This document shows, in pieces, positions 6,934 through 64,000 of a stretch of 64,000 bases of DNA. Below the pieces are notes generated by a model that was not told where the DNA came from, searched no databases, and saw only the letters and a list, made by a program, of their open reading frames with translations. Every line of letters starts with the position of its first letter. The stretch's first letter is position 1. Source of the DNA: Vreelandella populi (GTDB lineage: Bacteria > Pseudomonadota > Gammaproteobacteria > Pseudomonadales > Halomonadaceae); the NCBI RefSeq assembly GCF_003989825.1, contig NZ_RZHE01000003.1, positions 186,001 through 250,000 on the forward strand, in the 5' to 3' direction. The translations under genes were made by a program, and so were the position numbers.

Positions 6934-9900
6934 CTAGCTCTCTAACTCGATATCGATGCCCAGCGAGCGGATTTCCTTCACGAGTACGTTGAAGGATTCC
7001 GGCATGCCCGCCTGCATGGTGTGGTCGCCATCCACGATGTTTTTGTACATCTTGGTGCGGCCTTCGACGTCATCCGATTTGACGGTGAGCATCTCCTGCA
7101 GGGTGTAGGCTGCGCCATAAGCTTCCAGCGCCCACACTTCCATCTCACCAAAGCGCTGACCACCGAACTGCGCCTTACCACCCAAGGGCTGCTGGGTAAC
7201 CAGCGAGTAAGAACCGGTAGAACGCGCATGCATCTTGTCGTCTACCAAGTGGTTCAGTTTCAGCATGTACATGTAACCAACGGTTACCGGGCGGTCAAAC
7301 GAATCACCCGTGCGGCCGTCGTACAGCGCCATCTGGCCTGACTCAGGAATGTCAGCAAGCTTCAGCAGGTGTTTGATTTCGTGCTCTTTGGCACCATCAA
7401 ATACCGGCGTGGCCATGGGCACACCACCTTTGAGGTTCTTGGCCAGCGCAATGACTTCTTCATCACTGAGTGAATCCAGATCTTCAGCGCGAGCACCAGG
7501 TGTGTTGTACACCTGACCCAAGAAGTCGCGAATCTCGGCAACCTGCTGGCCGCGTGCGTCGCGCAGCATGGCGTCGATCTTGACGCCCAGACCACGTGCA
7601 GCCATACCCAGGTGGGTTTCCAGAATCTGACCCACGTTCATACGTGACGGTACACCCAGCGGGTTGAGCACGACGTCAACCGGCTCGCCCTTCTCGTCAA
7701 ACGGCATGTCCTCGATCGGCATGATCGCGGAGATAACACCTTTGTTACCGTGACGACCGGCCATCTTGTCACCAGGCTGGATGCGACGCTTGACAGCCAT
7801 GTAGACCTTGACGATTTTCAGCACGCCCGGTGCGAGATCGTCGCCCTGGGTCAGCTTGCGCTTCTTGTCTTCGAAACGCTCATCCATCTCTTTACGGCGG
7901 TTTTCCAGCTGCTCGTCAGCCTGAGCCAGAAGCTCGTTGTAGGACTCATCCTGCATGCGCAGTTTGAACCACTGCTGACGCGGCAGCTCGTCGAGGTACT
8001 CTTCATCGAGCACGTCGCCTTTCTTGAGCTTCGGACCACCATTGACCGCCTGGCCGTCCAGCGTACGCTTGAGACGCTCGAACGTGGCGTCTTCGGCAAT
8101 ACGGTAGGTTTCCTGTAGGTCCTTACGGACTTCATCAAGCTGCATTTGCTCAATGGCAAGCGCACGGGAGTCCTTCTCAACGCCGTCGCGGGTGAAGACC
8201 TGAACGTCGATAACCGTACCTTTCATGCCAGTAGGGGCACGCAGGGAGGTATCTTTGACATCAGACGCCTTCTCACCGAAGATCGCACGCAGCAGCTTCT
8301 CTTCCGGCGTCAGCTGGGTTTCACCCTTCGGCGTTACCTTACCGACCAGAATGTCACCCGGGCCAACTTCGGCACCGATATAGACAACACCCGCCTCATC
8401 CAGCTTGCCCAGTGCCGACTCACCCACGTTGGGAATATCGGACGTGATCTCTTCCGGGCCCAGCTTGGTGTCGCGAGACACACAGGTCAGTTCCTGAATG
8501 TGGATAGTGGTGAAACGGTCTTCTTGAACGACCCGCTCGGAAAGCAGGATGGAGTCCTCGAAGTTGTAACCGTTCCAGGGCATGAACGCGATACGCATGT
8601 TCTGACCCAGTGCCAGATCACCCATATCGACAGACGGGCCGTCGGCGAGAATATCGCCACGCGCTACGTTGTCACCCGGGCGCACGATGGGGCGCTGGTT
8701 CATGCAGGTGTTCTGGTTAGAACGCGTGTACTTGGTCAGGTTGTAGATATCAACGCCGGCTTCACCACCGATGATTTCATCTTCGTTAACCCGCACTACC
8801 ACACGACGCGCATCTACCGAGTCGATCACACCGCCACGACGCGCTACGGCACATACGCCAGAGTCACGCGCAACAAAACGCTCCATACCGGTACCCACGA
8901 GCGGCTTGTCAGCACGCAGGGTGGGAACGGCCTGACGCTGCATGTTCGCACCCATCAGGGCGCGGTTAGCATCATCATGCTCCAGGAACGGGATCAGAGC
9001 AGCAGCTACCGATACGACCTGACGAGGAGAAACGTCCATCAGCGTCACTTGCTCAGGACGCATGAAGGTAGTCTCACCACGGTGACGTACCTGTACCAAG
9101 TCATCGCTCAGCTTGTTGGACTCGTCAACCGCCGCCGATGCCTGGGCGATAACGAAATCACCCTCTTCGATCGCTGACAGGTGAACGATATCGTCAGTCA
9201 CCTGACCCGCATTAACCTTGCGGTACGGCGTCTCAAGGAAGCCGTAGCTGTTAGTGTGACTGTAGGTGGCCAACGAGTTGATCAGACCGATGTTCGGGCC
9301 TTCAGGCGTCTCGATGGGGCAAAGACGGCCGTAGTGCGTGGCGTGTACGTCACGTACTTCAAAGCCGGCACGCTCACGTGTCAGACCACCCGGGCCGAGT
9401 GCAGACACACGACGCTTGTGGGTAACTTCCGAAAGCGGGTTGTTCTGGTCCATGAACTGTGAAAGCTGGCTTGAACCGAAGAACTCTTTCACCGCCGCCG
9501 CAACCGGCTTGGCGTTGATCAGATCCTGCGGCATCAAACCTTCGCTTTCCGCCATGGAGAGACGTTCTTTCACCGCACGCTCAACGCGCACCAGACCTAC
9601 ACGGAACTGGTTTTCGGCCATCTCGCCAACACAGCGAATACGACGGTTGCCCAGGTGATCGATATCGTCAACGTCACCAAAGCCGTTACGGATATTGATC
9701 AGCTCGCGCAGCACATCAAGGATGTCCTTGCGATCGAGCACGCCAGAGCCGGTGTCGGAATCGCGACGCAGGCGGCGGTTGAACTTCATGCGACCCACGC
9801 CCGACAGGTCGTAGCGGTCTTCAGTGAAGAACAGGTTGTGGAACAGCGTTTCGGCTGCTTCCTTGGTGGGCGGCTCGCCAGGACGCATCATGCGGTAAAT

Positions 9901-48539: not shown

Positions 48540-49208
48540 TTACCCCTCAGGCTGTTGGCGTAGCAACAGCTCAACACGCCGATTAGCGGCCCGCCCTGCT
48601 GGCGTTGCGTTACTTTCCATGGGTTGGGTGTCGGCATAACCAACGGCCCGCATGCGAGAAATAGCCACTCCTTGACGCTCTAGATGACGCATTACCGCAA
48701 TAGCGCGCCCGGCGGAAAGCTCCCAGTTGGAGGGAAACCGGGGCGTGGCAATCGGAATATTGTCAGTATGCCCTTCAACGGATATTTGCCCATCGAAGGT
48801 CGCCAGCGCGTCAATCAGGCTTTCTACGACATCTTGGCCCTGAGATGTCAGCACTGCCTCACCGCTGGAGAATAAAAGGCTATCGTCAATACGTAGTGTC
48901 ACGCCTTCCTGGCCTTGAGATACGCTAACACCCGGTATATCCAGCGCCGCCATATGTGGCTGCAACCCGCTATGGCGCGGGTATATACCGGTGGCAAGCG
49001 TTGCCAGGGGCAGTAAATCATCCAGGCTGGCGGGCATGCCAGCACTCCCCTGTGCTTCGCTACCGCCCGGGGGCGCCAGGGCCAATAACAGTACAAACAG
49101 GGTAATTAGCAGCGTCAGAACATCCAGATAGCTAGTCAGCCAGCTTTCATCGCTCTCGCCCTGCCCAGATGGCAGTTCCAACGCATGACGCGTGTCACGG
49201 TCCAGCAT
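48540..49208 (-). CDS. motD: Flagellar stator protein, MotB/MotD family
   Basis: Peptidoglycan-anchored half of a flagellar stator, 222 residues, shorter than most MotB/MotD proteins (about 250-310). The single membrane helix (SYLDVLTLLITLFVLLLALA) contains the conserved ion-binding aspartate near its start. The C-terminal OmpA domain has VEGHTDNIPIATPRFPSNWE with LSAGRAIAVMRHLE following, and GRAANRRVELLL. The plug/linker region is compact. It starts 4 nt after the motC stop. Whether protons or sodium drive it cannot be told. Confidence 0.92.
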   Translation of the reverse strand: MLDRDTRHALELPSGQGESDESWLTSYLDVLTLLITLFVLLLALAPPGGSEAQGSAGMPASLDDLLPLATLATGIYPRHSGLQPHMAALDIPGVSVSQGQEGVTLRIDDSLLFSSGEAVLTSQGQDVVESLIDALATFDGQISVEGHTDNIPIATPRFPSNWELSAGRAIAVMRHLERQGVAISRMRAVGYADTQPMESNATPAGRAANRRVELLLRQQPEG

Positions 49209-49212
49209 CGCG

Positions 49213-50031
49213 TTAGCCTTTTACAGGGGCGCTAGCGGCGCCGGGTCGGGGCTTGACACTGGCATCCCGAATTTCATCGTTGTAGTTGGCAATAAACGAG
49301 TTCAGCGTCTCTTCAATAAACGATGGCAGGCGACGTTTGGTAATCAGCGAGATACCTTCCAGCACCATGTTCATGGTGATAAGGCGCTCTTCAGTACGTC
49401 GTTCAAGCTTCACGGCAATCGGCTTGAACACCAGATTGGCAAGCAAGATACCGTAAAATGTGGTGAGTAGTGCCACCGCCATACGCGGACCGATCACATC
49501 CAGGTCACCGGCATCCATCACTTCGAGCATATTGACCAGCCCCACCAGCGTGCCAATCATGCCAAATGCAGGCGCGTAGGTCGCCATGGTACGAAAAATC
49601 TGCGCTTCGGCGTGTTCACGGGCCTTTAAACGGGCAATCCGCCAGCGCAGCATATCGAAGATTTCATCTTCTTTGGTGTTGGCAATAACCAGTTGAATAC
49701 CGGTACGCAAAAACGGGTTACGGGTGTGCTCAAGCTCTTTCTCCACTGCCCGGACATCGCCCTTAAACCATAGCCGAGACATGGCAACCAGCTCGTTGAT
49801 ATCATCACGTACATAGGTATTTTCGCGCCGGAAAACCAGGCCGACCAGACGCACAACGCGCAGCACTTCTTTAAGTGGGTAACTGATAAACGTGGCGGCC
49901 AGGGTCCCGGTCACGACAATGGCCAACCCGGGTAGATTGATAAAGCTTTCAGGGGACTCAGCAGTAAAGAACAGCACGCTTACCAGTAACAAAATACTGG
50001 CGAATATACCTATCAGCGTAGATGGGTTCAT
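49213..50031 (-). CDS. motC: Flagellar stator protein, MotA/MotC family
   Basis: Membrane half of the stator, 272 residues from ATG 50031 (GAGGAG 6 nt upstream; a TTG three bases earlier is unlikely). Four membrane helices are visible: about 7-25, 34-50, and two after residue 145 including TYAPAFGMIGTLVGLVNMLE. A large charged cytoplasmic loop for FliG contact lies between helices 2 and 3. It pairs with motD. Position after fliA matches the motCD locus of pseudomonads rather than motAB next to cheA. Confidence 0.93.
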   Translation of the reverse strand: MNPSTLIGIFASILLLVSVLFFTAESPESFINLPGLAIVVTGTLAATFISYPLKEVLRVVRLVGLVFRRENTYVRDDINELVAMSRLWFKGDVRAVEKELEHTRNPFLRTGIQLVIANTKEDEIFDMLRWRIARLKAREHAEAQIFRTMATYAPAFGMIGTLVGLVNMLEVMDAGDLDVIGPRMAVALLTTFYGILLANLVFKPIAVKLERRTEERLITMNMVLEGISLITKRRLPSFIEETLNSFIANYNDEIRDASVKPRPGAASAPVKG

Positions 50032-50071
50032 CAACGGCTCCTCGCCGGTTAAGGTAGATTAAAATAGCGAC

Positions 50072-50773
50072 TCAGACCGCATCATTAAGGCGAGCGCGCA
50101 GACGGCTGATGGCCTGACTATGCAGTTGGGATACGCGAGATTCCGTTACCCCCAGCACAGCGCCGACTTCCTTCAGGTTCAGCTCTTCCTGGTAATAGAG
50201 CGCCATCAGAAGCTTTTCACGCTCGGGCAGGGCATCAATGGCCGCAATCAGGGTTTGCCGTTGCTGTTCGTCGAGCAACTGGTCAAACGGCAAGTTGCCG
50301 GCATCGAAGCTTACCGGTTCGCCGCCATCAGCCACCAGCTCCTCAAACGGGAGCAGTTGACCGCTATTGGTGTCGTTGAGCAGCTGTTGATACTCGCTAA
50401 GCGGCATCTCAAGCTCACGGGCAATTTCACCTTCTTCCGGCGGGCGACCGAGCTGTTGTTCCAGGCGCCTGACGGTATCGTCCACCGCCCGCGCTGCTCG
50501 CCTGACGCTGCGTGGCAACCAGTCCCGGGTACGCAGCTCATCGAGCATCGCACCACGAATGCGCTGGCTGGCAAACGTCGCAAAGCTTGCGCCTTGCGTT
50601 GCATCAAAGCGGCCTAGCGCCTCTAAAAGCCCCACCGTGCCTGCCTGAACAAGATCGTCAAGTTCAATGCTTGCTGGCAATCTGACCTGCAGCGTTAAGG
50701 CATGACGTCTCACTAGCGGCATGTACTGTGTTAGAAGCTCACGTTGTTGGATCCTGCCTTGTGCTGTGTACAT
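50072..50773 (-). CDS. fliA: Flagellar sigma factor 28
   Basis: Directs RNA polymerase to late flagellar and chemotaxis genes. The 233-residue product has region 2 with AGTVGLLEALGRFDATQGAS, FATFASQRIRGAMLDELR and DWLPRSVRR, and region 4 with LKEVGAVLGVTESRVSQLHS. The length matches FliA (about 240). It is encoded between flhE and motC, on the same strand as the export genes. Confidence 0.96.
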   Translation of the reverse strand: MYTAQGRIQQRELLTQYMPLVRRHALTLQVRLPASIELDDLVQAGTVGLLEALGRFDATQGASFATFASQRIRGAMLDELRTRDWLPRSVRRAARAVDDTVRRLEQQLGRPPEEGEIARELEMPLSEYQQLLNDTNSGQLLPFEELVADGGEPVSFDAGNLPFDQLLDEQQRQTLIAAIDALPEREKLLMALYYQEELNLKEVGAVLGVTESRVSQLHSQAISRLRARLNDAV

Positions 50774-50799: not shown

Positions 50800-51204
50800 T
50801 CACTGATAGTTCACAATGACTTGTAGTCCCTGTACGCGTACTGGGCGCTGACCGGGCCTTAAGTTGAAACGGAAATACAGCGGTTCATTCGCGTGCCTGC
50901 CTGCCAATTGGGTCACGGTACCGCGCATTCCGGACAGCGCAACGCACTGCTCAGGATGACAAAGCCAGGCGTTGACGGCACCGCCTGGCGGTGCGTCCAG
51001 GCGCCAGTGGATACGATCAATTACCCCCTCCTGGGCCAGCACACCGTTGGGCGGTGCGATTGGCTGGCTGCGGCTGTCCCGATCGCTCATGGCCACCATG
51101 ACGCTCTGCACCTGGGCACTCCAGCTACCTGCAGCGTGTGCGGCACCGATAAGCCCCATGGCGAGCCAACAGCTGCCTATCACCTTTACATACCAGCTTA
51201 ACAT
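50800..51204 (-). CDS. flhE: Flagellar protein FlhE
   Basis: Small periplasmic flagellar protein, 134 residues. The signal peptide (MLSWYVKVIGSCWLAMGLIG) is followed by cleavage at AHA at residue 24. Family features are present: IHWRLDAPPGG, the paired cysteines in LCHPEQC, EPLYFRF and the C-terminal VIVNYQ. In enterobacteria FlhE follows flhA and limits proton leakage through the export apparatus. Here it lies after the flhG-like gene and before fliA, 26 nt from the latter. Identification rests on motif recall, not on a search. Confidence 0.8.
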   Translation of the reverse strand: MLSWYVKVIGSCWLAMGLIGAAHAAGSWSAQVQSVMVAMSDRDSRSQPIAPPNGVLAQEGVIDRIHWRLDAPPGGAVNAWLCHPEQCVALSGMRGTVTQLAGRHANEPLYFRFNLRPGQRPVRVQGLQVIVNYQ

Positions 51205-51273: not shown

Positions 51274-51834
51274 TTAACGCGCCAGCAACAACAGGTCAGT
51301 CGCCAGATAGTGGGCGGCCGCATCACGTAAATTATTCAATAACCCCTGGCGTGACAAATGAGGCTCATGCAGTGCCAGCAAACGCTGCGGCCCGCCATTT
51401 TCACGCGCCTCCCGCAATACGCGGTACATTTGCGAAAAAGCCTGTGCATCGCTGTTAATCCACAGCGCCCAGCGGGTATGTTGAGCGCTTAACCGGGCAA
51501 GATCAGGACCCGCCACGTTCACCAGGTGGATATCCCAATCATCGGGGCTGCCTGCCCAGGTTCGGCCAAGCTCGGACCACTGCACCAACCGGCTTTTTAC
51601 CCGGCTAACCGCCTGCACGCCGTGCCCCGTGACGCCGATAATAAATAACGGTTTTTTTAGCGCTTGCCGGGCTGGCGCTGGCACCTGGGCCGCAGGCGTC
51701 CACTCAGGTTGAAGGGGCGCAGCGCTGGCTGGCTCGGCGTCCAATAGCCCGGAAGCGTCATCAGCGGTGTATGCGTGTTTCAACCGTTGGGCATCGGCCC
51801 ACTGACGTAGCCCGGCGGCCTGATCCTGACTCAT
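51274..51834 (-). CDS. FlhG/FleN-like protein with DQAxxLR motif but no Walker A
   Basis: 186 residues in the flhG position, overlapping the end of flhF by 4 nt. Residues 4-10 are DQAAGLR, an exact match to the DQAxxLR element with which FlhG stimulates the FlhF GTPase. A proline/alanine linker follows (about 31-58). Then IIGVTGHGVQAVSR (65-78) stands where MinD/FlhG ATPases have VTGGKGGVGKT; the lysines and GKT are gone. The C-terminal half (DDWDIHLVNVAGPDLARLSA onward) can be aligned by eye with the FlhG segment around DxxIVDTAAGIS. About 100 residues of the ATPase core are missing. It is probably a non-catalytic FlhF regulator. Function is inferred. Confidence 0.7.
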   Translation of the reverse strand: MSQDQAAGLRQWADAQRLKHAYTADDASGLLDAEPASAAPLQPEWTPAAQVPAPARQALKKPLFIIGVTGHGVQAVSRVKSRLVQWSELGRTWAGSPDDWDIHLVNVAGPDLARLSAQHTRWALWINSDAQAFSQMYRVLREARENGGPQRLLALHEPHLSRQGLLNNLRDAAAHYLATDLLLLAR

Positions 51835-53996
51835 ACGCCCACCTCTCGGCTGATGCTACCGAGCTGGCGAATCGCATCGCGAGCCATAAAAGCATAGACC
51901 AGCGCATCTAGCATGGCCGTATCACGGCGCTTGCGTCGCGTACCCAGAAGACTTAGCAGATCCGTGCGCAGGGCAAGGGCTGCCTCGTCATCGGCGATAT
52001 CCAGGTGGCCCACGACAGCGGCAACGCCGCTGGCCATGAGTAGGCGCACCTCAGCGCTAAGATCGCCGCTATCACTCTCCTTGAGCTGCTGCCAGGCGCG
52101 CTTGGTTAACGCCGCAAGCCCTTCACTTTGCAACTGTGTTACCAGCAGTGGCAGTGCTTCGACCCCTTGTTGGGCAGGTGTAAGCCAGTAGCGCCGGGTG
52201 ACCACCTTGGCGTTTTCAGGATCACGGACTTCACCGTACCAGGCGATCAGCTTATCGCCGGCGTCGCCATGCACCTCGGCATAGGCAGTCCATAACTGCA
52301 TGGCCTGACCGCGAAAACGCACGTTAACGTGATGGTTAAGCGTGCTTTCATTAAACAGCCAGCGCAGCGTGGAACGCTCGCCGTGGAAGGATACCCGCTG
52401 CGTCGGTGCCACCAGACTGACCCAGGTCAACTGCTGGTCAGTTAGCCATTGCAGGGTGTCCAATGCAGGCAATACGGGAAGTAGATGCGTGCTGGCGCCG
52501 GTCTTTTCATGCTGCGCTTCCAGGCGGGCCTGCCAACCCGCAGGCTGACGATGCTGTAGACCGGGCAGCGCCAGCCAGGCGCCCTGCCCGTCGATGCCTA
52601 TATCCGGCATGGCCCAATCACAGCCCCGCTCATTGCGCCGCGCCGCCCAGGCGATACTCTTGGCAGGTAAAGGCTTGGCCAATAGCTCACTCAGCTGAAC
52701 ATCCTGCAATCCGCCGGGCAGCGCGCCGATATCCCATGCCGCTTCAAGGGCAGCAAAGCCGGCAACCCGCCGGCGCAACCGTATGAGCAGCGATGATAGA
52801 CGCCGCCCTTGGCCCAGCACGTCTCGTGACCAGCGTGGCATGCTGATCGGCGCGGCAAGCGTTGCGTGACCGGTTACCGACGCCTGGGTTTCCAGTGCCT
52901 GATTGATCAACATTTCAGGCACCGCGACACTCATGTCTTCCGGCACCTGCTGGCCATGAGAGCTGAACAGCACACGCATACCATGGCGGATAACGATATC
53001 CAGTACGGGGGCCAGGCGGCCTGCTTCGTCCTGTTTGGTGATGATGCAATCATTAAGCTCAGCGCCTGCGGCGCGTGCGGCCTGGCGATAGCGAAGCACT
53101 ACTTCTTCGAGGGTTTCCGGTTGGCTGGCAGCGTTAAGCAACAGCACTAAGCGCACGGAGGAATGGCCACCCTGAAGGTGTGCAATCTGCTCAATCACAC
53201 GCTGGTCGCGCTGGCTCATGCCTACCGTATCAATCATGACCCACTGCTTGCCCTGCAGACGGTTCAGCAAATCATCCACCGGCTGCTCGGCATCGAGTGC
53301 GTACATGGGCGTATCCAGCAGCCGGGCGTAGATTCTTAACTGCTCGTGGGCGCCGATACGAAAGCTATCAGTGGTGACCAGCGCCACAGGGCGTGTGCCG
53401 TGGCGCATGACAAAACGGGCTGCCAACTTGGCAGTGGTAGTAGTTTTGCCCACGCCGGTAGGGCCAACGAGGGCCACAATGCCGGTTTGATCGAAAAAGC
53501 TGGCTTCGTCATGCAGTACGCTGAGCCGCTCGGTGAGCTGTTGGCGCAGCCAGGCGAGCGGCAGATCGCTTTTTGCATCAAGTGCCTTGAGCGACTCAGG
53601 CAGCCCGGCGAGCACTTCATCGCCAAGCTCAGCGCTGAAGCCAACGCGGCTCAGCAGCTCGCGCAACTGCTCATAAATCCCGGCTGCTGACGGGGCTGGC
53701 CTTACGGAATGCGCGCTCTGCTGACGGGTCAACAGGGCCCGCATATCCTGCATTTCCCGCAGCAATCGCTCGCTCATGGCCTGCAGCGGGTCAGGCTCTC
53801 TAGCCGGCTCAGGCAAAGGAACAACGGGCGCCGAAGTGGCCTCAACAGACGTGAGCGCCTCATCGGCCATGGCCAGAATCTCAACGCCCTCGTCAATGCG
53901 CCGATTGGCTAGAATCAGGGCGTCATCTCCCAGGTTTTCGCGTACCTGGCGCATGACATCGCGACTGTTTGCTCCAACAAAACGCCTAACGCTCAT
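51831..53996 (-). CDS. flhF: Flagellar SRP-like GTPase FlhF with long C-terminal extension
   Basis: SRP-family GTPase that sets the place and number of flagella. The start MSVRRFVGANSRDVMRQVRE and the B domain (1-100) are typical. The NG domain has G1 GPTGVGKTTTTAKLA (178-192), TDSFRIGAHEQL (209-220), G3 DTVGMSQRD (256-264) and G4 TKQDEAG (320-326). The conserved part ends near residue 375. Known FlhF proteins are about 370-500 residues; this one is 721. Its last ~345 residues (376-721) are soluble, tryptophan-rich and unrecognised. They are not a second GTPase and have no membrane helix. Overlaps the flhG-like gene by 4 nt. Confidence 0.92.
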   Translation of the reverse strand: MSVRRFVGANSRDVMRQVRENLGDDALILANRRIDEGVEILAMADEALTSVEATSAPVVPLPEPAREPDPLQAMSERLLREMQDMRALLTRQQSAHSVRPAPSAAGIYEQLRELLSRVGFSAELGDEVLAGLPESLKALDAKSDLPLAWLRQQLTERLSVLHDEASFFDQTGIVALVGPTGVGKTTTTAKLAARFVMRHGTRPVALVTTDSFRIGAHEQLRIYARLLDTPMYALDAEQPVDDLLNRLQGKQWVMIDTVGMSQRDQRVIEQIAHLQGGHSSVRLVLLLNAASQPETLEEVVLRYRQAARAAGAELNDCIITKQDEAGRLAPVLDIVIRHGMRVLFSSHGQQVPEDMSVAVPEMLINQALETQASVTGHATLAAPISMPRWSRDVLGQGRRLSSLLIRLRRRVAGFAALEAAWDIGALPGGLQDVQLSELLAKPLPAKSIAWAARRNERGCDWAMPDIGIDGQGAWLALPGLQHRQPAGWQARLEAQHEKTGASTHLLPVLPALDTLQWLTDQQLTWVSLVAPTQRVSFHGERSTLRWLFNESTLNHHVNVRFRGQAMQLWTAYAEVHGDAGDKLIAWYGEVRDPENAKVVTRRYWLTPAQQGVEALPLLVTQLQSEGLAALTKRAWQQLKESDSGDLSAEVRLLMASGVAAVVGHLDIADDEAALALRTDLLSLLGTRRKRRDTAMLDALVYAFMARDAIRQLGSISREVGV

Positions 53997-54047: not shown

Positions 54048-56135
54048 TTAGCGCCCTCCCACCGACGTCGTTACGCGCAAGGTGCGGTCATCCGGAATCT
54101 CTGCTTGCGACATCACGACCATATGCCGTAACCGGCGGCGCAAAAAGCGCGACAATACACCCCGCAGGGAGTGTTGAACCACCAGTACCGGTGCTTCACC
54201 GCTACCCTCATGCTGCTCCAGCGCCTGGTGCGCCTGGGTCATCAGGGTGTCCGCCAAACCAGGCTCCATTGCCCCGTTACCGTTCATGGCCTGCATCAGA
54301 ACCTGCTCAAGCTGTGCATCAAGGCCCATGACATTGAGGGTTTCCTGACCGGCAAACCACTGCTGGGTAATGGCGCGGCCAAGCCCGATACGCACCAGGG
54401 CGGTAAGCTCATTGGGATCTTTCTGCTGGCCAGCATATTCGGCCAGAGTATCCAGAATAGTGCGCATATCACGGATGGAGACATCTTCTTCCAGCAGGTT
54501 TTGCAGGATACGCTGGAGAATGGTCAAAGAAATCGCCTTGGGTACCACTTCTTCTACCAGGGATTTCTGATCTTCACCCAATTTATCGAGCAGCTTCTGA
54601 ACCTCCTGGCGGCCGAGCATCTCCGGCGAATGACGGTGCAGCAAGTGGTTGAGGTGGGTAGCAATCACGGTGCTGGCATCGACCACGGTGTAACCATACA
54701 CCTGGGCGTGCTCACGCTGATTGGTATCAATCCAGACGGCCGGCAGGCCAAAGGCAGGGTCCTGGGTGGCGGTGCCCTGCAGCTCGCCAGATACCTGGCC
54801 GGGGTCAATGGCCAGCCACTTGCCTGGAAGCGCTTCCGCTCGCCCGATTTCAGCACCTTTCATGGAGAGTACATAGGTGTTGGGCGGCAGCTCCAGATTA
54901 TCGCGAATATGTACAACAGGCGGCAGAAAACCGACTTCCTGGGCAAACTTTTTGCGCACACTTTTGATCCGCCCCAGAAGCTCCCCCTTCTGGCGCGAAT
55001 CCACCAGAGGAATCAAACGGTGGCCAACTTCCAGCCCAAGTGTATCCACCAGTTGAACGTCTTCCCAACTGGCCTCGGGGGTTTCCTGGGTCACCGATGG
55101 GGCGGCAGAGATTTCTTCCTGTACCTGGGTCTTCTGCTTGTGACGAATCAAGAACCAAGCCAGACCGCCTAAAAGCGCGGTGAAAATCAGGAATACCAGG
55201 TTAGGCATACCCGGCACCATACCTAACAGCCCCATGACCATGGCGGCCAAAATCAGTACCTGAGGGTTAACGAACAATTGGTTGAGCATCTGCTGACCAA
55301 TATCCTCGCCCTGGTCGGTACTCACCCGAGATACCGTGACACCCGCTGCGGTCGAGATCACTAAAGCCGGAATTTGCGCTACCAGGCCATCGCCTATCGC
55401 CAGCAACATGTAGGTCTGGCCAGCAGCGCCAAAGCTCATATCGTGCTGCAGCATGCCAATCATCAAGCCACCGATGATATTGACCACCATAATCACCAAA
55501 CCGGCAATGGCATCACCGCGTACAAACTTACTTGCACCGTCCATCGAACCAAAGAAATCAGCTTCCTGAGCGACTTCTGCGCGGCGCTTTTTGGCATCCT
55601 CTTCGCCAATTAAGCCAGCGTTCAGGTCGGCATCGATGGCCATCTGCTTACCGGGCATTGCATCCAGTGTAAAGCGCGCACCGACCTCGGCAATACGGCC
55701 AGCACCTTTGGTGATAACCATAAAGTTGATGATGACCAAAATCAGGAAGACCACCAGGCCAACAGCGAAATTACCACCGACCAGGAACGCCCCGAACGCC
55801 TCAATAACTTTACCGGCGGAAGCACCGCCTTGGTGGCCTTCCATTAACACCACACGGGTAGAGGCGACGTTAAGCGATAGGCGCAGCAGGGTAGTGAATA
55901 GCAACACTGCAGGGAAAGCCGCAAAGTCCAGCGGCTTCTGCGTAAACATGCTGACCATTAGCACCATAATGGCCAAGGCAATGTTAAAGGTGAAGAGTAA
56001 ATCGAGCGCAAAAGGGGGCAAGGGCACAATCATCATGCCCAAAATCATCAGGATGAGCAGCGGCCCGACCAGCAGTTTCATGCGCACATCGCTCACCCAG
56101 TCACGCTGACCTATTAGCTGACTAAAACCTTTCAT
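54048..56135 (-). CDS. flhA: Flagellar type III export protein FlhA
   Basis: Large inner-membrane subunit of the flagellar export gate, 695 residues. Eight N-terminal helices (starting at about residue 18) include the FHIPEP-family segments FPAVLLFTTLLRLSLNVAST and AEVGARFTLDAMPGKQMAID. The cytoplasmic ring domain (about 340-695) carries the chaperone-docking region. It overlaps flhB by 4 nt, and 51 nt separate it from flhF. Confidence 0.97.
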   Translation of the reverse strand: MKGFSQLIGQRDWVSDVRMKLLVGPLLILMILGMMIVPLPPFALDLLFTFNIALAIMVLMVSMFTQKPLDFAAFPAVLLFTTLLRLSLNVASTRVVLMEGHQGGASAGKVIEAFGAFLVGGNFAVGLVVFLILVIINFMVITKGAGRIAEVGARFTLDAMPGKQMAIDADLNAGLIGEEDAKKRRAEVAQEADFFGSMDGASKFVRGDAIAGLVIMVVNIIGGLMIGMLQHDMSFGAAGQTYMLLAIGDGLVAQIPALVISTAAGVTVSRVSTDQGEDIGQQMLNQLFVNPQVLILAAMVMGLLGMVPGMPNLVFLIFTALLGGLAWFLIRHKQKTQVQEEISAAPSVTQETPEASWEDVQLVDTLGLEVGHRLIPLVDSRQKGELLGRIKSVRKKFAQEVGFLPPVVHIRDNLELPPNTYVLSMKGAEIGRAEALPGKWLAIDPGQVSGELQGTATQDPAFGLPAVWIDTNQREHAQVYGYTVVDASTVIATHLNHLLHRHSPEMLGRQEVQKLLDKLGEDQKSLVEEVVPKAISLTILQRILQNLLEEDVSIRDMRTILDTLAEYAGQQKDPNELTALVRIGLGRAITQQWFAGQETLNVMGLDAQLEQVLMQAMNGNGAMEPGLADTLMTQAHQALEQHEGSGEAPVLVVQHSLRGVLSRFLRRRLRHMVVMSQAEIPDDRTLRVTTSVGGR

Positions 56136-57301
56136 GGTTGTTGCGCCTCATTACCACCGGCGCCATGCCCGGGGGTTTCCAATTCCGGTGGAACCGGCAG
56201 ATTATCGGGGGTTGGGGGCACCTCGCCTCCTTGTTGAGCAACGTGCTTCAAGCGGTAAGCCCAGGCCATGACCTCGGCCACGGCAGTATAAAGCTCAGCG
56301 GGCACCTCAGCCTCAAGATCCACGTGATGATACAGCGCTCGCGCCAGCGGCGCGGCTTCCAGACGAGGAATCCCTGCTTCCAACCCCAGCTCGCGTATTT
56401 TGGCAGCGACAGCATCGGCCCCCTTGGCGACCAGCCGCGGCGCACCCATGCTGCCCTCCTGATACATCAAAGCCACGGCGTAATGGGTGGGGTTGGTAAT
56501 AATAACGTCCGCCTGAGGGACCTTGCTCATCATTCTGCCCCGTGCCATTGCCTGCTGCTGCTGACGAATTCGTCCTTTCACATGAGGATCGCCCTCTGAC
56601 TCCTTATGCTCGCGCTTCACCTCTTCCTTGCTCATGCGGAGTTTTTTGGCGTTGCTCCATAGCTGAAAGGGGACATCCATCAGAATCACCACAATCAGCG
56701 AAAACACCATCAGTCCGGCGGCCTGTGCGGCCATGTTAAGCGCACTGGCCAAGGCTTGCTGAATGGGCTGGTCCATCAACGACAAAAACTTGCCAACGTT
56801 GAAGTACAAAAATGCCGACGCCACGCTGCCTATCAGGACCGATTTGGCAATCGCCTTGGCAAGCTCAATCAGCGCCTGGGATGAAAAAATACGCTTAACC
56901 CCCGCAACAGGGTTCAGCTTGGAAAGCTTGGGCTGCATGGATTTGGCTGACACAATCCAGCCGCCCAGCAACGCAGGTGAAACCAGGGCAACCACCGTAA
57001 GCAGTAAAAACAGCGGTGTCATAGCGATAAGCGTACGCTGTCCCAGATCCAGCGCATTGGTCAACATGGGTATCTCTTCCATGGCCTGGCGGCGCTCGAA
57101 CAGAAACGCCTGCTCCATGACCATACCTAACTGGTCATAGAGCATCATGCCCATGCTCCACAACCCAATGACGCCACCCAGCAGAAGTAAAAACGTGGTC
57201 AGCTCGCGAGAACGCGGCACCTGCCCTTCCTCGCGGGCTTTGTCCCTACGCCTGGGCGTGGCCTCTTCAGTCTTTTCCTGGTCGCTATCGTTATCTGCCA
57301 T
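56132..57301 (-). CDS. flhB: Flagellar export switch protein FlhB
   Basis: Inner-membrane protein that switches export specificity from rod/hook to filament subunits. The 389-residue product has four membrane helices between about residues 35 and 210, a charged linker, and the autocleavage motif NPTH at 270-273. The proline-rich tail after residue ~365 is variable in the family. It opens the flhBA-flhF segment after a hairpin following cheZ. Confidence 0.97.
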   Translation of the reverse strand: MADNDSDQEKTEEATPRRRDKAREEGQVPRSRELTTFLLLLGGVIGLWSMGMMLYDQLGMVMEQAFLFERRQAMEEIPMLTNALDLGQRTLIAMTPLFLLLTVVALVSPALLGGWIVSAKSMQPKLSKLNPVAGVKRIFSSQALIELAKAIAKSVLIGSVASAFLYFNVGKFLSLMDQPIQQALASALNMAAQAAGLMVFSLIVVILMDVPFQLWSNAKKLRMSKEEVKREHKESEGDPHVKGRIRQQQQAMARGRMMSKVPQADVIITNPTHYAVALMYQEGSMGAPRLVAKGADAVAAKIRELGLEAGIPRLEAAPLARALYHHVDLEAEVPAELYTAVAEVMAWAYRLKHVAQQGGEVPPTPDNLPVPPELETPGHGAGGNEAQQP

Positions 57302-57418: not shown

Positions 57419-58114
57419 TTAAAAGCCTAATTCATCCAATAAGTCGTCTACCTGGTCCTGACCTGTGACGATATCGGGTGCATTATCCTTAATTTGCGGG
57501 CCGTTCAAGAGATCTTCATTACGCCGTGCGTTGTCGTTTTTCCACTGATCTTCCGCCTTGCGCTGCATGGTTTCCCGCACTTGAGCGCCCGGGACGTTGT
57601 CGATCAGCACTTGAACAAGCTGATGTTCGATCTCGCGGATCACATCCATCATCTTTTTGATCACCTGGCCAGTCAGGTCCTGAAAGTCCTGGGCCATCAT
57701 GATCTCTAAAAGTTCCTTATTGGTCGCGGCGGTGATAGTCGGCACGTCGCTCAGGTAAGCACGCGTATCCTTAACCAGTACCTTAGCATCTTCTAGATCC
57801 TTGGGTGCTTCAAACCAGTCAGCCCACTGTTTATCAAGCCCTTCGGCACGCTCGGCCAACTGATCCTGAAGCGGCTGTGCCCGATCAATGGCATTCAGTG
57901 CCCGATCTGCCGCCTGCTCAGTCATGGTGGCTACATAGTGAAGCCGATCCCGGGCATCGGGAATAGCTTCCGCCGCTTTTTCGATCTCTTTGTCCAAACC
58001 CAACTCGCGCATATTGTCACGCAGCATGCGGGTAAGCTTACCGATGCGATGAATTAGATCTTCAGCGGCTTCTTCGGACATTTGGGCAGAGTCGGTCTGC
58101 TCATTCTGACTCAT
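57419..58114 (-). CDS. cheZ: CheY-phosphate phosphatase CheZ
   Basis: Removes the phosphoryl group from CheY to reset the motor signal. The 231-residue helical product has the catalytic segment [18 protein letters not shown], containing the acidic residue and glutamine that act on phospho-CheY, and the C-terminal CheY-binding peptide DDLLDELGF. It lies 42 nt after cheY on the same strand. Confidence 0.96.
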
Positions 58115-58599: not shown

Positions 58600-60297
58600 T
58601 TAAAAGGCTTCCCACTCTTCGTGGTCGCTGTGGCTTGGCGCTGAACGTGTTGCCGGGGCAGCCGGTACGGTTTTCTTAACCGTTTTAGGCAATGACGCCG
58701 GCGCTTTCGTGGGTAAGGAAACGTGCTGAGAGCCTTGCGTGCCCAGTAGCTTGAACACGGCAACCGCTTCTTCCAGACGATTGGCCTGCTCTTCCAGCGA
58801 AGAGGCCGCGGCCGATGCTTCTTGTACCAGGGCAGCATTCTGCTGTGTTACTTGGTCCATCTGACCAATAGCGTGGCTCACCTGCTCGATACCATCGCTC
58901 TGCTCCTGGGAAGCTGCTGAAATCTCATCCATGATGTCGGTCACCCGGCGCACGGCTGTGACTACGTCCGCCATGGTGGTTCCCGCCTGCTCGACCAGGG
59001 TAGAGCCTTGCTTGATCTGGTTGACCGAGGCATCAATCAACGTTCTGATCTCTTTGGCAGCATCGGCACTGCGACTGGCCAGGTTACGCACTTCACCGGC
59101 GACCACGGCAAACCCACGCCCCTGCTCACCAGCACGCGCGGCCTCCACGGAGGCGTTCAAGGCAAGAATATTGGTTTGAAATGCAATGGAGTCGATCACG
59201 CTAGTGATATCGGCCACTTTTTGCGAGCTGCTCGATATGCCGTGCATCGTTTGAACCACCTGATCCACCACCTGACCGCCGTGCTCAGCCGTGGTTGAGG
59301 CGTCCGCCGCCAGCGTACTGGCCTGGCGGGCGTTATCGGCATTCTGTTTTACCGTGGCGGTCATCTCTTCCATGCTGGCCGCGGTCTCTTCAATAGAGGC
59401 TGCCTGTTGTTCGGTGCGCGACGAAAGGTCCGCGTTACCGCTGGCAATTTCCCGGGTGCCATAATGAATTTCCGAGCTGCCTTCACGCACCCGCGTCACT
59501 ATAGTAGTCAAGTTTTGCTGCATGACGGCCATCGCGGTAAACAGGCGGCCAACTTCATTATTGCCCGCCTCCGGCAGCGGCTGGGTTAGATCGGCCTCGG
59601 CGATTTTATTCAAGCGCTTGACCGCATCATTGAGCGGTGCCGTCACCGTTTTTCGCAGGCCTATATAAATCAGCAGCGTAATAAGTAGCGCTACTCCCAC
59701 CGCAATAGCGCCGATCAGTGTGAAGAGCCGGCCCTGTTCCTGCGCGTCAAGACGGATGGTATCGGTGCGCGCAAATGCATAATCAGTGAACGCGGTGGTG
59801 CTTTCAGCCAAGTTTGCAAGCGGCTCGACCAAAGCGTCGCGCAAATCGTTGTAGGTATTGATATCCATCTGTTCAAAACTTTCGTGCTGCTGCCTTACCA
59901 GCGCTACCACCTCACGAAAATTGACAATCAGCTCGGCGCCAAGGACCTCGCCTTGAGACGTGCGTGGCGTTGAAGCAAATTTTTCAAAACGCGTTTCGGC
60001 CCGCCCGATTCGGTTCTCCGCGATCGCTAACTGTTCGTTGGTCTGGCGCATCTGGCCGACCATCATATAATTCGATGCGACTTCCATGGCCAGCATGGCC
60101 TGATTAAGCAATGAGTCCGCTCGGTTAATCTCATTAAGCTGGTCGCCACTGATTCGGCTATAAATAGCCAGATTCTCTTGTGCGTTGCGATCCGATACAA
60201 AACCGATACCCGCTGTCACCACAATAAGCGTTGCAAAGCAGGCCAGCGCCGCTATGACAGTTGCATGAATACTCAGATTGCGCAGTAAACGCGTCAT
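58600..60297 (-). CDS. Methyl-accepting chemotaxis protein
   Basis: Transmembrane chemoreceptor, 565 residues. TM1 lies at about 12-32, followed by a periplasmic four-helix-bundle-type sensor of about 155 residues, TM2 at about 190-212, and HAMP. The signalling hairpin has the conserved tip [20 protein letters not shown] and the following [19 protein letters not shown]. The C-terminal pentapeptide EWEAF resembles the NWETF tether used by CheR and CheB. The ligand is unknown. It sits between cheB and cheY. Confidence 0.95.
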
Positions 60298-60338: not shown

Positions 60339-61400
60339 TTATACCCGCTGGGCTCGCCCAGAGGCCGCCACCATGGCCATCAGACGTGCGGGAATATCAT
60401 CAAGAGCCGCAACTTCCACTGCCCCGCCTACCGCAATTGCCTCACGCGGCATGCCGAAAACCACACAAGTGGCTTCATTCTGTGCAATGGTCGGCGCGCC
60501 AGCCTTGCGCATCTCCAGAAGTCCGACAGCGCCATCCTTACCCATGCCGGTCAAGATCACACCGATCGCATTACGCCCGGCATGTTCAGCGGCGGAACGA
60601 AACAACACATCGACGGACGGGCGGTGCCGGTTGACAGGCGGGCCACTATCCAGGCGGGCCACGTAGTTCGCCCCACTGCGCACCAGCTTAAGGTGCTGAT
60701 CACCCGGGGCGATGTAGGCATGCCCGGGCAGTACGCGTTCGCCGTCGGTCGCTTCCTTTACCGTTATGCGACACAGCCGATCCAGCCGCTCAGCAAAGGA
60801 GCGGGTAAAGCCGCCCGGCATATGCTGGGTGATCAAAATAGCCGGCGCGTTGGCAGGCAAGGGTTCAAGCACGGCACGGATCGCTTCGGTACCGCCGGTG
60901 GATGCACCGATAATGATCAGCTTCTCGCTGGAAACCAGCGGGGCTTTTAACTGAGCCGGGGGAGGAGCATTTTTGTGCCGCGCCTGACGCGGACGAGAGC
61001 GCGCAGCCGCACGCAATTTTTCAGCAATTTCGTTGGCGTACTCCATCATCCCATGACGAATACCCAGGCTTGGTTTGGCGACAAAGTCGAGTGCCCCTAG
61101 TTCAAGCGCACGCAGGGTAATTTCCGAGCCGCTCTGGGTCAGCGATGACACCATCAACACCGGCATGGGACGTAAGCGCATCAAACGCTCAAGAAAGTCC
61201 AGGCCGTCCATACGCGGCATTTCAACATCCAGCGTCAGCACGTCGGGATTGTGTTGTTTAATCAAATCCCGGGCAACAAGAGGATCAGGCGCGACAGCAA
61301 CCACTTCCATATCGGGCTGCGAGTTAATAATTTCGGTCAGCAGGTCACGAATAAGTGCCGAATCATCGACACACAACACTTTGATTTTGGCAGCGCTCAA
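60339..61400 (-). CDS. cheB: Chemoreceptor glutamate methylesterase/deamidase CheB
   Basis: Demethylates and deamidates chemoreceptors during adaptation. The 353-residue product starts at TTG 61400, with AGGAGG close upstream; no better start is in frame. The N-terminal receiver has Asp12, Asp13 and Asp58 ([12 protein letters not shown]). The C-terminal esterase has the catalytic serine in [10 protein letters not shown], histidine in [16 protein letters not shown] and aspartate in GMGKDGAVG. It follows cheR after 95 nt. Confidence 0.96.
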
Positions 61401-61495: not shown

Positions 61496-62374
61496 TTAGG
61501 CCCGGGTATATACCGTCTGCCCACGCAGCTTGAATGCATCACTGATGTACGAAAAGTTTTCCGAATGCCCTGCAAACAGCAACCCATCGGGCTTCATCAG
61601 CGGCGCAAATCGTTTAAGAATCTTTGCCTGCGTTTCCTTGTCGAAATAGATCATGATATTGCGACAAAAAATGGCATCAAACGGCCCTTTGACGGACCAC
61701 TGGGGTGCCAGCAGGTTAAGCGACATAAACTCAACCAGTTCAGACACCTCAGGGCGTACCCGGGCAAGCCCTTGGTGCTGCCCGGTGCCTTTCTGGAAAA
61801 AGCGCTTAACACGCGCTTCATCAAGTTTGCGTACCTGCTCTTGCGGGTAAATGCCCGCACGCGCGCGGCTTAACGCATCCGTATCGATATCAGTGGCGAT
61901 AATTCTGGCCTGTGCGGCTTTAGGGCCCAACGTTTCCAAAAGCGTCATGGCCAGCGAGTAAGGCTCTTCGCCGGTTGAGGCTGCCGAACACCAAATGGTT
62001 ACCGGGCCTGGCTTTTGGCGGATATGCTCTGCCAAAAGGGGAAAGTGGTGTGCTTCCCGAAAAAACGCGGTCAGGTTAGTGGTCAGTGCATTAGTGAATG
62101 CCTCCCACTCCTTTGCCTCAGGCTGACGCTCCAGGCGTACAAGGTAATCGGTAAAGCGCGTCATGTTGTGGTGCCTTAGCCGCTTGGCCAGCCGGCTATA
62201 CACCATTTCACGTTTATGCTCTGCCAATACGATGCCTGCACGCTGATAGATCAATTCACGAATACGTGCAAAATCAGCATCTGTGAGTACCAAATCCCGT
62301 TCTATCTGGTTGCCAGACGACCATTGGCTGGCATCGACACCCCGTTCGCGTTGCTCGGTCAAAATGCTTCCCAT
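61496..62374 (-). CDS. cheR: Chemoreceptor methyltransferase CheR
   Basis: Uses S-adenosylmethionine to methylate receptor glutamates. The 292-residue product has the AdoMet-binding segment [20 protein letters not shown], the [12 protein letters not shown] motif (NxTxFFR-type) and [11 protein letters not shown]. The ATG overlaps the end of the upstream MCP gene by 16 nt. AGAGGA lies unusually close to it, so translation may rely on coupling or start a few codons later. Confidence 0.95.
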
Positions 62375-64000
62375 TCCTCTATTGGTGTCACTTGGCGTCT
62401 TTCAGATGGCACGGGTGTTGAGGTGCGCTCTGTAGAACCAGCGAGCTTGGGCGCTTGCTTAGCAGTTGATGTCGTTGCTAAAGCTAAGGGGCGCCCAGAG
62501 CTTTGGTGATTAAGTCTAAATGCCTCGACCGATAGCGCGAGCATGCTTGCCTGATGCTCCAAAGCGACGGCGGCGCGTGCTGTTTCCTGAACCCGAACGG
62601 CATTTTGCTGTGTTGCCTGATCCATATCTGCCACCGCCTGATTAACCTCAGCAATACCACTGCTTTGCTCTTCAGAGGCGGCCGAAATTTCATACATAAT
62701 CTGCGTGACACCGCGCGCTGCTTCAGCCACATCGCTAATCGCAGCTTCGGCTTTTTCGACCAGCCCGGCGCCTACGGCGACTTCCTGATTTGACCCGTCA
62801 ATCAGTCCGCGAATTTCCTGGGCGGCGCCTGCGCTACGGCCAGCCAGATTTCGCACTTCTTCTGCCACGACGGCAAACCCACGACCATGCTCGCCCGCGC
62901 GTGCGGCTTCGACCGAGGCATTCAACGCCAGGATATTGGTTTGAAACGCAATGGAGTCGATAACGTTGATAATATCGGCCATTTTTTGCGAACTTTGTGT
63001 TATGCGCTGCATGTTGTCGACTAGCTGCGTCATTAGCTCGCCCGTTTGCGAAACCCGTGTAGTGTTATTATCGGCAAGGCGGCGCGCTTCTTGAGCATTC
63101 TCGCTATTTTGACGCACCGTTGTGGTCATTTCTTCCATACTGGCGGCGGTCTGCTGCAGTGAAGCGGCCTGCTGATCGGTACGCGAGGAGAGTTCCTCAT
63201 TGCCGCTGGCAATATCCTGAGCGGCGGGGGTAACAATATTGATGCCGCCTTTGACATCACCGATGATGCTGCTCAGGCTTTTACGCATGGCATTGAGCGC
63301 ATCAATAAGCTGGCCCACTTCATCATGGCGACGCTTGGGAGTTACCGCCGCCAAGTTGCCTCCGGCAATTTGTAACGTAAACTGAGAGGCGCTTTTCAAG
63401 GGCCGCACAATGGCCTGCAGGGTAAACATGCCAATTAAAACCAGCAGCAATAAGCCAATACCCAGCACTACTGCCTGGAAGGTAATAATAGTGTTCTGCC
63501 CCTGATGAGCGTCGGCGGCCATTATTTCGGCGGCCTGCTGTTTTTGAGCAATTAGTTGATTCACGCTTTCCGATAATGCCCGCCCTTCATCTGACATGAC
63601 GCTAATCACGGCGTCTAGGCCGATAAAGGCCTCATAGATCTCTTCAGCTTGCAAAATGCTGGCAGCCTGAATCATTCCATCATTTAAAAATGTCTGTAGC
63701 TGGTCATCAAACACATCGGCTAGCGGCGTGGCATTCACCGGGCGTGAGTAATAGGCCTGCCATACGCTTGCGACCTCTTCAACGCGCTGCTCGATCGTTT
63801 GGCCTATATCAAAGCGCTGATTGATCAGTTGCATCCGCTCAGGCTCAATGATTCCCTGGCGCGTATTGGCAATCGTCTGATCGATTTGCTGGAGTCTGAT
63901 AACATCGCGCAGGCCATCGCTATTGAGCTGTTCCAGACGCTCGCTGGACGCCTTCAAACCATAAAGACCCAAACCGCCACTCATTAGCAGTAAGGCACCG
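62359..64000 (-). CDS. Methyl-accepting chemotaxis protein, 5' end beyond window
   Basis: Chemoreceptor whose N-terminus lies outside the window. The frame stays open to the right edge, and ATG 63984 falls inside the first membrane helix ([14 protein letters not shown]), so it is not the start. Visible parts are a periplasmic four-helix-bundle-type sensor, TM2 ([18 protein letters not shown]), HAMP, and the hairpin tip [20 protein letters not shown]. The protein ends in EEWEAF, like the other MCP here. It is the first visible gene of the chemotaxis cluster and overlaps cheR. Confidence 0.95.

Follow-up and report, generated by a model that had tools for sequence, protein, structure and literature searches.

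FlhG, also known as FleN or YlxH, is described as a switch powered by ATP that keeps the number of flagella down and drives the turnover of its partner FlhF, and its C-terminal end carries a membrane-targeting sequence. The flagellar gene order of Escherichia coli that is used here for comparison is flhDC-motAB-che-flhBAE. How does FlhG act on FlhF? According to the portion of PMC12826062 that is available, a helix of FlhG stimulates FlhF through its Gln, and the available portions of PMC12713375 and PMC11236974 also describe the role of the helix and this Gln. The same portion of PMC12826062 has FlhG restraining FlrA/FleQ in monotrichous bacteria and reports that flhF and flhG are absent from many enterobacteria. 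Pseudomonad FleN is without the DQAxxLR motif, as stated in the available part of PMC12713375, and flhF in one Halomonas is mentioned, with no remark on its length, in that of PMC10185862. Among the papers found by searching the literature, represented mainly by titles and abstract openings and by few subscription journals, none was evidently on an ATPase-less FlhG or a transposase-tailed FlhF.

The window described here, a 64,000-nucleotide stretch of a Vreelandella populi contig, carries on its minus strand the order cheR, cheB, MCP, cheZ, flhB, flhA, flhF, a small gene called X below, flhE, fliA, and a MotA/MotB-like pair (Table 1). Outside the window, the same contig has flhD, flhC, motA, motB, cheA, and cheW (motA, motB, and cheW recognized by eye). 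This resembles the enterobacterial cluster, as Pfam identifies flhD, flhC, cheA, cheR, cheB, cheZ, flhB, flhA, and flhE on the contig. The difference is that here flhF and X are inserted between flhA and flhE; enterobacteria are without both flhF and flhG, according to the portion of PMC12826062 cited above. The MotA/MotB-like stator pair after fliA (48540-50034, minus strand) is present besides the motAB near flhDC.

A sequence-only reading of this DNA had proposed that X is an FlhG reduced to its FlhF-activating motif, and its description of the gene holds up. The frame of 186 residues is open, occupies the flhG position, and overlaps the end of flhF by 4 nucleotides at its start. It has DQAAGLR at its N terminus and VTGHGVQAVSR at the place of the FlhG P-loop, and it is indeed about 100 residues short, as FlhG frames measure 270 to 318 residues at the level of the order (22 frames, counted from the start codon) and 292 to 344 at the level of the class (10 frames, stop to stop). 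Like FlhG, FleN, and YlxH, X lies after flhF, bears an N-terminal DQAxxLR, and has colinear similarity over the C-terminal half; unlike them, it is without the Walker A motif, the FlhG middle, and the C-terminal end.

Table 1. Features of the flhF-X locus and its surroundings (positions in the window)
Feature	Position	Strand	Remarks
fliA (sigma-28)	50072..50773	-	
flhE	50800..51204	-	PF06366, 66 bits; NF047946, 59.5 bits, below cut-off of 150
X (FlhG-derived small gene)	51274..51834	-	186 aa, ATG start, without P-loop
X C-terminal stretch, residues 121-186	51277..51474	-	aligns with FlhG DEPxSITDAYALIK to RFLDV
VTGHGVQAVSR, X residues 68-78	51601..51633	-	occupies Walker A place; no GK[ST]
DQAAGLR motif, X residues 4-10	51805..51825	-	inside predicted N-terminal helix, residues 3-21
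flhF, long form, 721 aa	51831..53996	-	
FlhF residues 374-721, tail	51834..52877	-	akin to transposases of IS4 type; no Asp at the aligned catalytic Asp positions
FlhF residues 101-373, GTPase (NG) region	52878..53696	-	
flhA	54048..56135	-	
flhB	56132..57301	-	
cheZ	57419..58114	-	
MCP	58600-60297	-	upstream of cheZ
cheB	60339-61400	-	
cheR	61496-62374	-	
MCP	62359-63984	-	

How widespread is X? Its protein (P0001) matches 148 of 250 family genomes and 13 of 24 genera at E<=0.01, a count in which some matches above 1e-3 are doubtful and look spurious, for example those in two genomes with no FlhF (G037 and G219). The window's genus is represented by 75 genomes. By a tally made by eye, X occurs together with an FlhF match in 66 of them, this match being partial in one (G249); the other nine have no X match, and their weak matches to the FlhF model read as Ffh/FtsY. 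A search for related loci found none on viral contigs and led, on genome contigs, to Vreelandella nanhaiensis, whose X is 87% identical to that of the window. For comparison across the family, 74 rows were assembled from 31 early loci and 43 flhF loci, with some genomes in both sets. Similarity alone yielded 62 of them; the other 12 were picked with the motif and hence are not independent.

In the X of the window, the motif at residues 4 to 10 is followed by a linker that varies among members and, starting near residue 61, by a conserved body. That orthologues keep DQAxxLR, as the sequence-only reading expected, is seen in all 62 rows found by similarity, each of which has DQA[ASQ]GLR (74/74 overall). 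In 44 aligned rows D4, Q5, A6, G8, L9, and R10 are invariant, bearing in mind that 12 of the underlying 74 rows were chosen by motif. KGGxGK occurs in none of the 74 rows, and GKT in two (L027 and L098), both times within the linker. X starts between -11 and +31 nucleotides from the flhF stop in 43/43 fetched pairs, at exactly -4 in 19 of them, when its start is taken as the nearest ATG, GTG, or TTG before the motif.

X is under purifying selection. Pooled pN/pS is 0.18 in the helix and 0.29 in the core, against 0.79 in the linker, where nonsynonymous change is high (16 sequences, with synonymous sites saturated), and between the window and V. nanhaiensis the core has a dN of 0.028 and a dS of 0.34. 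In genera g2, g4, and g15, X is hardly recognizable beyond the helix, and the g4 and g15 rows and one g2 row are among those chosen by motif. In the three loci fetched from g8 (L121, L122, and L123), flhE comes right after the gene for the long FlhF and X is missing from this place, which means that X is not indispensable. Could X then be a relic, eroding because a system with FlhDC has made FlhG dispensable? The g8 loci, the strongly diverged forms in g2, g4, and g15, and the lack of both flhF and flhG in enterobacteria (available portion of PMC12826062) would suit such a history, yet the frames are open in all 74 rows, nonsynonymous change is low in the helix and core and not in the linker, and within the genus each of the 66 genomes that have an FlhF match has kept X. 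Erosion is thus an unlikely account of X.

A complete FlhG encoded elsewhere in the genome would weaken the idea of a replacement, and none was found. In the two order control genomes the FlhG profile reaches 496 and 520 bits, and it finds no full FlhG in any of 38 family genomes (11 with a short FlhF included), where its best match has 88 bits. In the window genome the best match reads as MinD beside MinC. The candidates considered there and set aside read as MinD, ParA, BcsQ-like, ArsA, and Mrp proteins, a 755-residue frame, and a 498-residue frame below the cut-off. The eight loci with a short FlhF, read over 10 kb each, have no P-loop gene of FlhG type and no X. A stray DQAxxLR in one of them (L082) sits in another protein. 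In the five of these loci (L078-L085) that were printed, fliA comes directly after flhF.

Is X descended from FlhG? The P0001 sequence has no match in Pfam or NCBIfam at E<=1, and Pfam run over 44 members gives scattered single-member matches, none consistent. Against PDB sequences, the three best matches of the X body are FleN at E values of 0.17 to 0.19, followed by an unrelated reductase at 0.33. Profile-profile alignment with hhalign gives a P of 0.0049 with the first FlhG set and, with the motif removed and a larger FlhG set, 7e-4 for 44 rows or 0.0038 for the 34 better-conserved rows, with the probability for the body at just 7 to 26%. None of 60 column shuffles reaches the 44-row score. 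The register, which in FlhG runs from DEPxSITDAYALIK to the RFLDV helix, is the same by three routes; the alignment passes over the middle of FlhG and ends at profile position 222 to 224 of 296. By this alignment the C-terminal membrane-targeting part of FlhG is absent from X, and with no Walker A and an alignment stopping at 224 of 296, neither an ATP dimer nor a membrane end is expected. The X core does not match the transposase profile (P 0.34), and an origin of the body itself from a transposase was rejected.

Outside the family, the X profile matches 18 class genomes at E<=1. Ten of these matches are real FlhG proteins with a P-loop and the motif, all ten as DQA[ASE]GLR, and nine of the ten have an flhF signature upstream. 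Nine were reached through the helix and one through the C-terminal part alone (E 0.003). In seven of the 18 genomes, the matched frames show no sign of FlhG. The remaining one, the best match outside the family (E 2.9e-6; L150, and L170 at 7512-8406, plus strand), is a P-loop-less MinD-like protein adjoining a ParA gene in a class-level genome. It is non-flagellar and was rejected as an FlhG, though it fits a MinD-type fold. Structure prediction from two sequences gave X a poor model (pLDDT 46.8) whose strand-helix order fits a Rossmann-like core; Foldseek and VIA-align matched it to generic alpha/beta folds such as KaiC, lumazine synthase, and response regulators, and neither FleN nor MinD is among the best 50 matches of each search.

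The opposite view would be that X is an unrelated small alpha/beta protein that gained a DQAxxLR helix independently. The lack of any family-library match, the weakness of the profile match to FlhG, and the absence of MinD and FleN among the fold matches shown are what one would expect of such a protein. It would, on the other hand, have had to arrive at the same place after flhF, with the same motif including Gly at position 8 and with a C-terminal match in one register by three routes that withstands shuffle and cross controls, and an independent origin is very unlikely. FlhG ancestry of the X body is supported, though weakly at the level of sequence, and X is taken here as FlhG-derived and not as an FlhG ATPase.

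From which FlhG might X derive? Pseudomonad FleN is the FlhG homologue of the same GTDB order, and its body aligns weakly with X, but it is a mirror image, having kept the ATPase with DQAxxLR absent, whereas X keeps DQAxxLR and is without the ATPase. DQAxxLR is likewise missing from each of the 26 FlhG genes with a P-loop that 30 order-level loci yielded, so an FlhG/FleN from this order cannot simply be taken as the ancestor of X. At the class level, none of the FlhG genes is followed by flhE, and a donor of the flhF-X-flhE arrangement was accordingly not found.

The partner of X is itself unusual. The window FlhF scores 224.9 bits against TIGR03499, over the cut-off of 174.15, and belongs to a long form that measures 713 to 873 residues in 46 loci (43 with X and the three g8 loci without) against 422 to 468 in eight loci of the short type; one locus (L118), with flhF broken by the contig end, is excluded from these counts. 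By strict patterns, the GTPase motifs of the 46 long proteins include TKxDE in all 46, GPTGVGKTT in 42, DTxGxxQRD in 41, and the DSFRIGAHEQL type in 27. The additional length is a tail of about 345 residues, and each of the 46 long-type loci encodes a homologous one. NCBIfam already holds a model of this long form, PRK14723 (NF011312, 768 positions), although the window FlhF, at 411 bits, is far below its cut-off of 951 and the model name is silent on any transposase origin; 17 of 32 tails match it.

Where does the tail come from? Its profile, run against 321 class genomes at E<=0.001, finds two family members and three others. The three are all transposase frames, one of them broken, and two match the Pfam family DDE_Tnp_1. 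Plasmid relatives at 37 to 45% identity are annotated as transposase and others at 22 to 26% as IS4 family transposase, and because of these annotations the tail is called IS4-type here. The hhalign comparison of tail and transposase gives a probability of 97% and a P of 5e-11 over 224 columns, with none of 60 shuffles as good; P is 1e-4 against one transposase sequence alone and 5.9e-6 against a broader IS4 profile. The tail has no match to the FlhG profile. In the reverse direction, a transposase HMM run over 2562 locus frames gives 56 matches at E<=1, all of them FlhF: 26 of 47 complete long proteins and 30 cut by locus ends. It has no match in the short-type loci. Its best E value is 3.5e-5, with the window's own locus at just 0.05, and the 18 matched segments that were printed, from 11 complete FlhF proteins, all lie inside the tail.

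Other searches with the tail returned little. Pfam gives the 32 tails alone no transposase family, just scattered weak matches; PDB sequences give one weak unrelated match; the structure model from two sequences has a pLDDT of 32.6; and the window genome has no second match to the tail profile. Could the tail still act as a transposase? It is part of FlhF and no mobile element, and its catalytic Asp positions are changed. At the aligned catalytic positions of 32 tails, neither Asp is found in any (0/32 at each) and Glu is found in 20, and the Trp after the first catalytic Asp is kept in 32/32; the position of this first Asp lies in a forced extension, outside the confident alignment. With Asp at neither position, the tail, though related to transposases of IS4 type by the profile comparisons, is not expected to have transposase activity. 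In a tree of the GTPase region (80 rows, with long branches and a usable stretch from 7 of 8 short-type, 19 of 30 order-level, and 7 of 12 class-level loci), 47 long FlhF proteins, the 46 and that of the window, fall on one side of a 99/99 branch, and the short ones lie among the order-level FlhFs.

What, then, would X do beside this FlhF? The best explanation, to which a probability of roughly 0.65 is given, is that X is an FlhG-derived, nucleotide-free activator of FlhF. It would be a shrunken FlhG descendant that keeps the DQAxxLR helix, known from the species studied to raise the GTP hydrolysis of FlhF, joined by the variable linker to a remnant of the MinD-like domain without nucleotide site, middle region, or C-terminal end. 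Most likely X would serve as a standing, ATP-independent activator of the FlhF GTPase, presumably produced alongside FlhF through coupled translation. Folding or docking is the probable role of the remnant domain, with the transposase-derived tail as a possible docking surface, and the tail in turn may bind the remnant or replace the positioning role of FlhG.

An alternative gives the body the main part, as an adaptor to the FlhF tail, the C-ring, or a regulator, with the helix merely an anchor for binding FlhF. The core shows selection of its own, and X is found only beside the long, tailed FlhF, at 43 of 46 such loci against 0 of 8 loci with a short FlhF. Yet X has kept the very residues, the Gln included, that are linked with stimulation in FlhG (available portion of PMC12826062), and some genera keep the motif with the core hardly recognizable, though several such rows were chosen by motif; an adaptor of this kind seems quite improbable. 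For the tail, one speculation goes beyond the activator reading: the placement switch may have been rebuilt, with the dead-transposase C-terminal domain of FlhF taking over the dimerizing or positioning role of the MinD-type ATPase, FlhG reduced to a remnant fold bearing a helix that activates the GTPase, and g8 dropping even the helix. This is tentative and more doubtful than not. The fusion of a transposase-derived domain to an SRP-type GTPase of the flagellum would make an unusual case in which cell architecture has taken in the protein of a mobile element.

The flagellar regulators of these bacteria may bear on the loss of the ATPase. FlhC is found in all 34 genomes tested that have the long FlhF and in none of 11 relatives with the short one; it is absent from both order controls and present in two of four family genomes without FlhF. 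A flhE match is found in 34 of 46 long-type loci, and in the 12 where none was seen (in g4, in g15, and in L107) the gene may be absent or diverged. Together with the tree, this context places X and the long FlhF in a flagellar system that has FlhDC and, in most cases, flhE. As FlhG/FleN elsewhere restrains FlrA/FleQ, the ATPase could have been lost because the system has FlhDC rather than, or besides, these regulators. The sequence-only reading had concluded that this lineage turned FlhG into a non-ATPase FlhF regulator. Of that conclusion, the FlhG origin, the lineage-wide loss of the P-loop, selection against decay, and the lack of a full FlhG in 38/38 family genomes are supported, whereas continued stimulation of the FlhF GTPase by the helix and an uncoupling of flagellar number control from ATP are putative further steps; with the transposase-like tail of FlhF and FlhDC also differing, it is only part of the story. 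In the Halomonas family, a well-known flagellar control switch may thus run on different parts. The lineage resembles an intermediate between bacteria that possess flhF and flhG and the enterobacteria, which have neither, and one that keeps just the FlhF-facing helix lets one ask which part of FlhG serves what. In one genome (G075, contig C1, 211783-213982), the FlhC match is divided into two parts separated by about 1.6 kb, which may mark an interrupted gene.
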